From contig DXHY01000060.1 of assembly GCA_019113175.1 (NCBI GenBank), positions 1-64,000 of the forward strand: 64,000 bases of DNA, in the 5' to 3' direction. How positions within the stretch are numbered: position 1 is the first letter of the stretch; the number at the start of each line of letters is the position of its first letter. Shown piece after piece: positions 7,074 to 27,932 of this stretch. Below the pieces are notes generated by a model, which searched no databases, was not told the DNA's origin, and saw nothing but the letters and a program-made list of their open reading frames with translations. Source of the DNA: Candidatus Eisenbergiella stercoravium. Its GTDB lineage: Bacteria > Bacillota > Clostridia > Lachnospirales > Lachnospiraceae. Position numbers and translations under genes: made by a program.

Positions 7074-7078
7074 GAGGC

Positions 7079-7099
7079 GGGAAAAGCTCTGCTTTTCCC
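7079..7099 (+). other. Perfect hairpin between hisS and aspS
   Basis: A 9-bp perfect stem (GGGAAAAGC / GCTTTTCCC) with a TCT triloop fits exactly between the hisS stop and the aspS ribosome site. There is no T-run, so it is an intercistronic hairpin rather than a terminator. Confidence 0.65.
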
Positions 7100-7116
7100 T
7101 GGAAGGAGAGAAAATT

Positions 7117-11403: not shown

Positions 11404-11562
11404 TGCCGCCTGCGGCGGCAGGAGCGGAGGTAAGATTGAAAAATAAGCCCGATGGCTTATTTTTCAATCAACAGTTTTGCGCCGAAGCACAAAACTGCTG
11501 TGATCGCAGAGGAGAAATCACCTGCGTGATTTCTCCTCGCGGCCTCAGCGTATCGCTTCGGC
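11404..11562 (+). repeat. String of five tandem hairpins in front of the LysR gene
   Basis: Five inverted repeats are packed end to end before the ribosome site. 11404-11420: stem TGCCGCC, loop TGC. 11434-11469: 16 bp perfect, loop CGAT. 11472-11497: 8-bp CAGTTTTG/CAAAACTG. 11509-11538: 13 bp perfect, loop CTGC. 11542-11562: GCC and AGCG steps with loop TAT. None is followed by a T-run. The stretch starts just after the divergent promoter area and ends one base before the overlapping ATGGAGG. Similar strings occur at 12.8 and 26.7 kb. Confidence 0.75.
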
Positions 11563-12793: not shown

Positions 12794-12952
12794 TTTCATA
12801 TCGTATGAAAAAAGACGCTCCGCTGTGGATGCGCACTCGCGTGCAAGGTAGATGTTGCCTGAAGGCAACCGCGCTCGGCGCGAGTGGTGCGCATGATGCG
12901 TACCGCATCAGGGCGCACACTTTTTTATGATTAAAATGCTGCCTGCGGCAGC
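12794..12952 (+). repeat. Hairpin cluster between the T-box and cysE
   Basis: Downstream of the T-box terminator, 190 bp before cysE hold more small hairpins. These are TTTCATA with loop TCG (12794-12810), GTTGCC with loop TGAA (12854-12869) and CGCGC with loop TCG (12870-12882). At 12887-12918 a nested stem (GTGCGC outer, GATGCG inner with loop TAC) is followed by AC and TTTTTT, so it looks like a second terminator. The last is GCTGCC with loop TGC (12938-12952). CACTCGCG (12834-12841) can also pair with CGCGAGTG (12879-12886). The final hairpin is identical in sequence to one at 26676-26690. Confidence 0.7.
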
Positions 12953-12968
12953 AAAACAGGAGAGGGTT

Positions 12969-20351: not shown

Positions 20352-20500
20352 CTGCCCTTCCGCATCTTTAAAATGGAAAGCAAAAAAAGGTCGGGTATGG
20401 CCCGGCAATATAAAAGGGATACCGCCTGCAGAGCGGAGACCGGCATGAACACGGTTCATGCCTGAATTGCAGCCGCCTGTCGGCAGCAAAAGGAGGAAAC

Positions 20501-26220: not shown

Positions 26221-26645
26221 GACGGGCCTCCTTTTGACCAGAAGGCAGTTCCGGAGCGGCTGACCCGCCCGTCCTGCCCGAAAAGTTTGAACAGTTTATT
26301 TTTCAAAATAGCTGTCTGATCATGGGATCAGTGTATCAGAGTAAATTTTAAAAATCAATCCGGTAACTCAGAATGGTCTTTCGTTGTTACATGCCACGGG
26401 TATTTCTTACTCCAAGAGTGATCCTCAAAAAAGACATCAGTGCAGAGTAGAGGTTTTAAGAGAAAAATTATAAAAATAACGGCCCCGCAGGTTTCTATTC
26501 AGAATGCTGAGAGCACAGCAGACCGGAACGTGACCAGCGGGGCATTTTAATGCCATACGGACAATTTAAAACCTGCGCTGATGCGACATAAAAAAGGACA
26601 AGTTGTCAAAAGTTTCTCTTATCCTTTTACGAGGGGAAATTTATA
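26221..26645 (+). other. Gene-free region between divergent AraC and fucose operon
   Basis: This AT-rich stretch must hold the AraC promoter and the operon promoter, but neither could be assigned with confidence. GCCCCGC (26482-26488) can pair with GCGGGGC (26537-26543), followed by ATTTTAAT, around an inner GCTG/CAGC hairpin. A second inverted repeat (AAAAGGA near 26592 with TCCTTTT near 26626) lies 15 bp before a GAGGGG ribosome site and the ATG at 26646. These could be attenuators. No gene is seen. Confidence 0.35.
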
Positions 26646-26673
26646 ATGAAGGTACAAAGAGACAAGAAAATCA

Positions 26674-26865
26674 GTGCTGCCTGCGGCAGCGGGAAAGGCG
26701 GAGAAAACCTGCGGTTTTCTCCTGGAAATTGGGCTTACGCCCAATTCCTCACGGAATTTAGTGCTGCCTGTCGGCAGCGGGAAAGGCGGAGAAAACCTGC
26801 GGTTTTCTCCTGGGAATTGGGCTTACGCCCAATTTCTTACGATTTTAGAGCCGCCGTTCGGCGGC
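26674..26865 (+). repeat. 87-bp tandem duplication of a hairpin string before the alcohol dehydrogenase gene
   Basis: Unit 1 (26674-26760) and unit 2 (26761-26847) are near-identical 87-bp copies. Each carries three perfect hairpins. GCTGCC/GGCAGC has loop TGC in unit 1 and TGTC in unit 2. GGAGAAAACC/GGTTTTCTCC is a 10-bp stem with loop TGC. AATTGGGC/GCCCAATT has loop TTAC. In unit 1 the right arm of the third can alternatively form AATTCC/GGAATT with loop TCAC. A further GCCGCC/GGCGGC hairpin (26850-26865, loop GTTC) follows. The AGAAAGGGG ribosome site and ATG at 26880 come next. The frame is open from 26646, but a one-base insertion and a one-base deletion shift unit 2, so the encoded peptide is not conserved between units. 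Confidence 0.85.
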
Positions 26866-26879
26866 AGAAAGGGGTAGAA

Positions 26880-27932
26880 ATGGAAAAAATGAGAATGCGG
26901 GGAGCGACGCTGCCCGGAAACAGCACGGTGGAGATGAAGGAATTTGACATTCCGAAGCCGGGACATGGACAGGTGCTGATTCAGACGAAGGCCACGACGA
27001 TCTGCGGAAGCGATATCCGCTGCATCTACCGGGCGCATGTGGGAAAGGGACCGGAAGGCTATATTCCCGGTATGGTTGCAGGACATGAGCCCTGCGGCGT
27101 GATCGTGGAAGAGGGAGAGGGACTGAGACGCTTTAAGAAGGGCGACCGTGTAATCGTTTATCACATCTCCGGCTGCGGCGTGTGCAACGACTGCCGCAGA
27201 GGCTATTACATTTCCTGCAAGAGCCGCTTCCGTCAGGCGTACGGCTGGCAGAGAAACGGCGGAATGGCGCCCTACATTCTGGCGGAGGAAAAGGATCTGA
27301 TCGCCCTTCCCGACGAGTTGACCTACAAGGATGGTGCGCAGGTGGCCTGCGGTTTCGGTACGGTATACGAGGCCATTGAAAAAATCGGAATCTGTGGAAA
27401 CGACGCGGTTCTGGTGACCGGTCTTGGCCCGGTCGGCCTGGCGGCACTGATGCTGGCAAAAGCCATGGGGGCCAACATGCTCATCGGTGTGGAGATGAAT
27501 GAGTACCGCGTGGAGCTGGCGAAAAAGCTGGGACTGGTGGATTATGTATTCACCCCTGACGAGGCACTGGAAGGAATTATGAAGGTGACGAACGGCAACG
27601 GCGTGGAGCGCGCCATTGATGCCAGCGCCAGCGATCCGGGACGGCAGCTTGCTATCCGTGCCACCAGAGAATGGGGTAAGATCGCTTTTGTGGGAGAGGG
27701 CGGAACCTGCACCTTCAATCCCAGCCCGGACATCATCCACGGTCAGAAGACCATCTACGGCTCCTGGGTGACCTCTCTGTGGAGAATGGAAGAGCTTGTA
27801 GAGCGGCTGGTGCGCTGGGGCATCCATCCGGAGGATCTGATCACCCACGAATTCCCGCTGGAGAAGGCAGGAGAGGCCTACGCCCTGATGGCAGGAGGAA
27901 ACTGCGGCAAGGTCGCGGTGGTATTCGATTGA
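26880..27932 (+). CDS. Zinc-dependent alcohol/sugar dehydrogenase (MDR family)
   Basis: This 350-residue medium-chain dehydrogenase oxidises an alcohol or sugar with NAD(P). The catalytic zinc site is CGSD near residue 41 and GHEPCGVIVEEGEGLRRFKKGDRV around residue 66, here cited as GHE. The structural zinc cysteines lie in SGCGVCNDCRRGYYISC. The Rossmann motif is VTGLGPVGLAALMLA. The start at 26880 with AAAGGGG upstream gives the normal family N-terminus; the in-frame extension to 26646 is the hairpin string. It leads an operon with an aldo-keto reductase, FucU and a fucosidase, so a fucose-related substrate is a reasonable guess. Confidence 0.88.
   Translation: MEKMRMRGATLPGNSTVEMKEFDIPKPGHGQVLIQTKATTICGSDIRCIYRAHVGKGPEGYIPGMVAGHEPCGVIVEEGEGLRRFKKGDRVIVYHISGCGVCNDCRRGYYISCKSRFRQAYGWQRNGGMAPYILAEEKDLIALPDELTYKDGAQVACGFGTVYEAIEKIGICGNDAVLVTGLGPVGLAALMLAKAMGANMLIGVEMNEYRVELAKKLGLVDYVFTPDEALEGIMKVTNGNGVERAIDASASDPGRQLAIRATREWGKIAFVGEGGTCTFNPSPDIIHGQKTIYGSWVTSLWRMEELVERLVRWGIHPEDLITHEFPLEKAGEAYALMAGGNCGKVAVVFD

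Follow-up and report, generated by a model that had tools for sequence, protein, structure and literature searches.

The hairpin array ahead of an alcohol dehydrogenase gene

In the window, by which we mean the whole 64,000-nt stretch of DNA analysed here, a string of perfect palindromes is written twice over just ahead of a start codon, and the question raised by this locus is whether such an arrangement is a leader RNA, a palindromic mobile element or something of both. These two ideas had been put forward in the first-pass annotation and both were supported by the results given below, namely the position at start codons, operon-internal copies, covariation, presence and absence at orthologous genes, and insertion-like sites. 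The leader (26674-26880) consists of two tandem units, each made up of hairpin A, a purine linker and hairpins B and C, followed by a final hairpin A, a Shine–Dalgarno sequence (SD) and an ATG. The sequence and a repeat search bore out the earlier description of two near-identical units (offset 87-88 nt), and the sequence also bore out their perfect stems and a seventh hairpin (GCCGCC/GGCGGC) ahead of the ribosome site. The features of the region are as follows, with the evidence for each in brackets.

26642..26647, + strand: TATAAT, probable −10 box of the leader promoter (sequence; same place in all 13 ADH leaders of the genus)
26676..26690, + strand: leading hairpin A, GCTGCC-TGC-GGCAGC (sequence)
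26691..26699, + strand: purine linker 5′ of unit 1 hairpin B (sequence; purine linkers occur at most family places)
26700..26722, + strand: unit 1 hairpin B, stem GGAGAAAACC/GGTTTTCTCC (sequence, repeat search, covariation)
26727..26746, + strand: unit 1 hairpin C, stem AATTGGGC/GCCCAATT (sequence, repeat search, covariation)
26763..26778, + strand: unit 1 hairpin A, stem GCTGCC/GGCAGC (sequence, covariation)
26779..26787, + strand: purine linker separating the units (sequence)
26788..26810, + strand: unit 2 hairpin B, same stem as in unit 1 (sequence, repeat search, covariation)
26815..26834, + strand: unit 2 hairpin C, same stem as in unit 1 (sequence, repeat search, covariation)
26850..26865, + strand: terminal hairpin A, GCCGCC-GTTC-GGCGGC (sequence)
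26869..26874, + strand: SD, AAGGGG (sequence)
26880..27932, + strand: zinc-binding alcohol dehydrogenase family gene, ADH, behind the leader (Pfam ADH_N 6.8e-25, ADH_zinc_N 1.8e-24)

As the TATAAT ends 28 nt before the first stem and is kept in all 13 genus genomes, most of the 5′ leader is probably taken up by the array; a strict promoter scan gave no match at this TATAAT. A longer alternative ORF opens in frame at 26646, but its ATG overlaps the conserved TATAAT and for that reason was not taken as the start of ADH. No sense-strand intrinsic terminator or sigma-70 promoter was found within the array, the sole terminator-like site being on the − strand. A known Rfam element was rejected as there were no matches at the gathering score in the window (the highest score in the leader, for NiCo, was 19.4 bits with a threshold of 37). 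The fold of the leader RNA has a z of −5.95 relative to shuffled sequences, none of 200 shuffles being as good. Tandem palindromes can pair with one another, and this is predicted for the near-identical C palindromes of units 1 and 2. The alternative partner proposed earlier for the third hairpin of unit 1 (AATTCC/GGAATT, 26743-26748 with 26753-26758) does exist as a pairing, but its role as a switch did not hold up, since it is confined to that copy in alignments A1, A2 and A4.

A genus-restricted family of modules

With the 87-nt unit as query, a DNA search that scored 40 of 54 candidates returned at least 20 matches in the window's own genome. A covariance model (R1) was built from nine units at eight places. 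In a search of this genome that scored 150 of 1491 candidates it gave at least 143 matches at E up to 1, antisense shadows included, and over 80 fetched loci it gave 108 matches at E up to 1e-4. Removal of ten antisense shadows of palindromes from the latter left at least 98 units at 82 places, which is a lower bound because of the fraction of candidates scored, and a pattern search added five more unit places beyond the 82, with R1 matches as support. The module, of about 86 nt, comprises hairpin B, hairpin C, an A/T-rich spacer of about 12 nt and a GC-rich hairpin A, and is short, dispersed and multi-copy in the manner of a MITE or BOX-like interspersed repeat.

Related genomes carry the unit as well, a point that the first-pass annotation had proposed to check: of 13 genus genomes, Eisenbergiella by record titles, 11 gave R1 matches, and the 28 genomes drawn from other genera of the same family and order gave none. 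Ten of the genus genomes had 11-86 matches each, G003 had 2 and G001 and G012 had none, these last three being large; this search used stricter filters than that of the window's genome alone (86 matches there as against 143, antisense shadows in both). The GCCGCC hairpin showed the same split (55-177 versus 4-15 per genome), and a reversed-pattern control for it gave 4-28 per genome, equalling or exceeding the real pattern in G001, G003 and G012. When 150 genomes of the family (149 genera) were searched with the B-hairpin pattern it was found in one, the window's own. The module family is restricted to the genus. Phage or plasmid origin was rejected, there being no blastn match in collections of either.

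Position of the modules at start codons

The link to gene starts suggested in the first-pass annotation proved to be general, as in 79 of the 82 cases the last unit is closely followed, on its sense strand, by the start codon of an ORF of 50 codons or longer. Three places are without a start call, one having an ATG whose ORF is truncated at the end of the locus and two running into further units; among the 79 automatic calls L124 is doubtful, and in L099 and L106 an alternative start was chosen by rule. From the last stem base to the start codon there are 12-20 nt in 50 of the 52 loci that could be scored (of the 79). Because R1 itself contains part of the SD region, a scan was also made with a single B-hairpin pattern, which is blind to SDs. 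Of 44 Lachnospiraceae matches to this pattern 37 are found 5′ of a start codon, in company with a hairpin and SD-like letters (29/35 in records titled Eisenbergiella, three of the 29 having matched on both strands, and 8/9 in two other Lachnospiraceae MAGs). For 32 of these 37 the distance is 63-75 nt. Among 11 matches in unrelated taxa there are 2 such cases, with distances of 98 and 192 nt. Among viral contigs the exact B-hairpin pattern was seen in one, an IMG/VR contig (L217, 7919-7942), either as a family member or by chance.

Twenty-nine of the 79 arrays are operon-internal, beginning within 40 nt of the point where an open frame of at least 100 codons on the same strand ends, and the tyrS array stands after a T-box-like leader (88.8 bits, just below the cut-off of 93). 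From both observations a role as promoter is unlikely, so that the module would act, if at all, on the RNA and at the start of translation, and on the same grounds we infer its transcription within the 5′ leader or the operon spacer. A Pfam scan of 31 downstream proteins (including that of the window) from the 82 places gave a hit for 30, and the families are diverse; they include adenylosuccinate synthetase, tyrosyl- and phenylalanyl-tRNA synthetases, topoisomerase, DNA polymerase III alpha, alanine racemase, Mur ligases, glycosyltransferases and a beta-galactosidase, with no shared function of the kind that a gene-class-specific cis-regulator would have among these 31. One further unit, at about 1501-1589 of L058 (G011:C52), lies between ORFs that by eye resemble ribosomal proteins S5 and L30.

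Conservation of the stems

The stem covariation that had been anticipated for the hairpins was sought in two alignments. A3 comprises the 108 R1 matches, including the ten antisense shadows that were dropped from the unit count, and was fitted to the model and hence leans towards it; A4 is a plain MAFFT alignment, not so fitted, for which the ADH leaders of eight genomes supplied 13 units, 12 of them distinct. In A3 96.6% of cells pair and all 27 pairs have changed on both sides, in 660 cells, compared with 184 for shuffles and 34-109 when the partners are slid. In A4 97.4% of cells pair versus 94.5% in shuffles and six pairs have changed on both sides (13 cells versus 3.9 shuffled and 0 or 1 in slid versions), with no excess of further pair types, which were fewer than in shuffles (8 versus 9.6). 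Some of this paired change could come from template-switch repair of palindromes or from conversion between copies.

Exactly three perfect hairpins were found by script in 57 of the 98 units, whose B arms come in 37 different versions and whose C arms come in 32; a peptide-coding repeat was rejected since the stems persist while the letters change. In G002, G003 and G011 the plan A-linker-B-C-A-SD-ATG is kept and the letters of B and C are different from the window's. The TGC triloop, previously taken as a recurring signature, was rejected as a feature of the family because it forms the B loop in 7 of the same 57 units. More uniform than the B and A loops is the C loop, which reads T[TG][AG]C in 29 of the 57 and is possibly a recognition feature.

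Pair-keeping changes in all three stems would be expected if these were a selected cis-regulatory or mRNA-stabilising 5′ leader family that evolved in place and was copied from gene to gene by recombination, without being itself mobile. The sense-strand placement at start codons and the uniformity of the C loop also favour this explanation, as does the presence in some relatives' leaders of a single SD-proximal hairpin with no B or C, which may be an older state or a remnant. We nevertheless regard it as unlikely, given the absence of a common theme among the 31 downstream proteins and the behaviour of the unit at orthologous genes.

Orthologous leaders and insertion-like sites

Leaders of 21 genes that carry a unit in the window's genome were fetched from relatives and searched with R1 (E up to 1e-4). 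In seven close relatives the unit was present at 38 of 128 orthologous leaders and missing from the other 90, which speaks against a selected leader that evolved in place. The 38/128 is not a neutral rate because the 21 genes were chosen for the presence of the unit in the window's genome. In five other relatives it was present at none of 47 leaders of these genes. The number of units also differs between genomes at the same gene (ADH, tyrS). An HD-like gene has two copies in G008 (L307 and L335), one with a leader identical to the filled one of the window's genome and the other with a divergent, empty leader; the identical leader, which is counted in the 38, may reflect contamination or recent transfer.

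At pheS and trmD the flanks are insertion-like, which again argues against a leader family that is not mobile: comparison of empty and filled sites places a unit of about 86 nt at the SD between 7-nt direct repeats. The empty pheS leaders of G004 and G007 read TGAAAGGAG and then AACCGAA-ATG, and the filled ones of G000, G005 and G008 read TGAAAGGAG, then the unit ending in AAAAAGGAG, then AAGCGAA-ATG. At trmD four of six relatives run from GTAGGAGG straight to the ATG without a unit (the other two are also without it), and the filled leader of G000 has GTAGGAGGCATG, the unit, AGGCATG and GAAGTACG-ATG. Two more copies are flanked by direct repeats of 11-13 nt ending in the SD, GT2 in G006 (AAAACCAGGGAGG and AAACCAGGAGG around the unit) and C2:90134 in G000 (GAAATTCAGGAGG and GAAATCAGGAGG). 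As empty relatives at GT2 share only the SD part of the repeat and not its 5′ part, the clear empty/filled pairs are two, pheS and trmD. Direct repeats of the kind left by target duplication are present at four copies in all, two of them with alignable empty sites; at asnB, wzx, ntpI, ybaB, alr and nagB no clear duplication was readable. Flanks could be scored at 52 of the 79 loci, and the 5′ and 3′ flanks of one array are more alike than those of different arrays (0/5000 permutations reach the observed likeness); the likeness is marginal where the leading A hairpin is missing (24 loci, 49/5000). No terminal inverted repeats were seen by eye at the ends of the units.

Accessibility of the ribosome-binding site and a possible mechanism

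In the accessibility model the ribosome-binding site (−13 to +6) is predicted to be more open behind the native leaders (0.566) than behind dinucleotide-shuffled ones (0.510), the native value being the higher in 55 of 79 cases, but without any leader it rises to 0.655 and the native is better in 18/79. For −18 to +6 the values are 0.528 native, 0.485 shuffled and 0.639 leaderless, with native above shuffled in 53/79. In this model the module would be benign at best, because the site is more open with no leader at all, and an accessibility that lies between shuffled and leaderless fits an insertion made tolerable by self-folding, in which initiation would be restored by the copied SD. Translation rates can be strongly set by structured regions upstream of the SD (PMC3936740), so that an effect of the module on expression is plausible.

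On balance the evidence tips towards a small palindromic module that spreads by itself, has SDs as its targets, provides the gene with a copy of its SD and is folded back on itself within the mRNA. According to this model the module of about 86 nt would insert at the SD of a gene and duplicate it in part or in full. The old SD would thus come to lie 5′ of the module and the copy between hairpin A and the start codon, and the units would then amplify in tandem. Transcribed within the 5′ leader or operon spacer, the three stems would fold locally, and by changing in a pair-keeping way would leave the new ribosome-binding site fairly open, which might make the insertion tolerable, or perhaps useful, for translation or mRNA stability. 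The putative targeting of SDs is supported by a few clear sites and by the position statistics; mobility, the order of these events and any benefit to translation are inferred. A bolder version, which we would offer tentatively and think somewhat improbable, is that of a mobile RNA-structure cassette targeting the ribosome-binding site, which inserts at the SD, duplicates it and swaps in a portable, self-insulating initiation region, the genus thereby rewiring about a hundred 5′ leaders by insertion and tandem copy number. The likelihoods that we attach to these and the competing explanations overlap and do not sum to one. If insertion at the SD is true, this would be a natural system that alters translation leaders by insertion and copy number, for which close species would serve as comparisons with and without the module. 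The family also offers a clean test of whether covariation in palindromes comes from RNA selection or from DNA repair.

Comparison with known repeats

By description the nearest analogue is the pneumococcal BOX element, which is modular (boxA-boxB-boxC), present in about 100 copies per genome, stem-loop forming and variable in tandem number, and is reported to have terminal inverted repeats, target duplications and over-representation between convergent genes (PMC3049150). The modules resemble BOX in having around 100 copies, a modular build, stem-loops, variable tandem number, limitation to a clade and target duplications, and as far as that description goes differ from it in lying at SDs, on the sense strand, with covarying stems, a distinction made from the description and not from a sequence alignment. 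BOX elements, the best studied of the comparable repeats, tend to lie where harm is small (PMC3049150), whereas the modules lie almost only at ribosome-binding sites. The likeness in patchy presence, tandem expansion and clade limit (PMC3049150) raises the alternative of purely selfish MITE-like repeats that survive only where they are harmless, with the paired change arising from palindrome repair and not from selection. A leaderless ribosome-binding site predicted to be more open than the native one would fit this too, but we think the alternative improbable, since the placement is near-exclusively at start codons in the sense direction, quite unlike the over-representation of BOX between convergent genes (PMC3049150), and since the stems remain so nearly always paired (96.6% of cells in A3).

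Similar in position to the modules are the TAACTGA direct repeats of Beggiatoaceae, more than 100 short tandem sets that mostly lie just 5′ of the start codons of unrelated genes in patchy genomes (PMC4679880). The modules share this position and patchiness; the TAACTGA repeats are, however, heptamers and not hairpins, and their description, in so far as it covers the point, has no SD-flanked insertions (PMC4679880). Structured standby sites, in which hairpins and single-stranded windows upstream of the SD can set initiation rates (PMC3936740), have hairpins upstream of the SD in common with the modules but are a general property of leaders and not a repeat family. As BOX differs in gene context and probably in its termini and the TAACTGA repeats share the start-codon position, we class the family as a small interspersed repeat, with SD targeting as a candidate new property. 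Judging by titles and the openings of abstracts, we found no published description of it in the literature.

REP sequences with RAYT transposases are also dispersed palindromic repeats, for which we know of no sense-strand start-codon rule, and Neisseria REP2 is a repeat family 5′ of genes, to which the modules can be likened, by description, in being placed ahead of genes. The modules differ from the REP/RAYT system in that no Y1 transposase (PF01797) was matched in the window's 95%-complete assembly, and REP/RAYT as a resident agent in this genome was rejected for this reason. That they are a REP-type or IS200/IS605-derived element moved by a Y1 HUH transposase is very improbable, for although subterminal hairpins and a target-like 3′ end recall the logic of IS200/IS605 and PF01797 is present in the many-match genomes G008, G009 and G010, it is absent from seven of the ten genomes with at least 11 matches (that of the window and six others) and does occur in the three with 0-2 matches. 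No mobilising enzyme was found in the class searched, that of the Y1 transposases; the movement that we propose may depend on other transposases, on reverse transcription or on template switching between SD repeats.

Further weak or partial members in the window

Three weaker candidates stand directly 5′ of other ATGs in the window.

12882..12963, + strand: weaker family member, 5′ of ATG 12969 of a 229-aa ORF (R1 21.8 bits, E 6.2e-4; sequence)
20440..20497, + strand: degenerate member with B and A hairpins and an SD, 5′ of ATG 20501 (R1 11.8 bits, E 0.23, weak; sequence)
7077..7116, + strand: B-like hairpin and SD, 5′ of ATG 7117 (R1 16.4 bits, E 0.016, weak; sequence)

In addition, an isolated GCCGCC-TGC-GGCGGC hairpin at 11405-11419, with no clear gene downstream, is followed by SD-like purines and then by a long inverted repeat (GATTGAAAAATAAGCC/GGCTTATTTTTCAATC), and an inverted repeat much like this one is present in the alr leader of G005.
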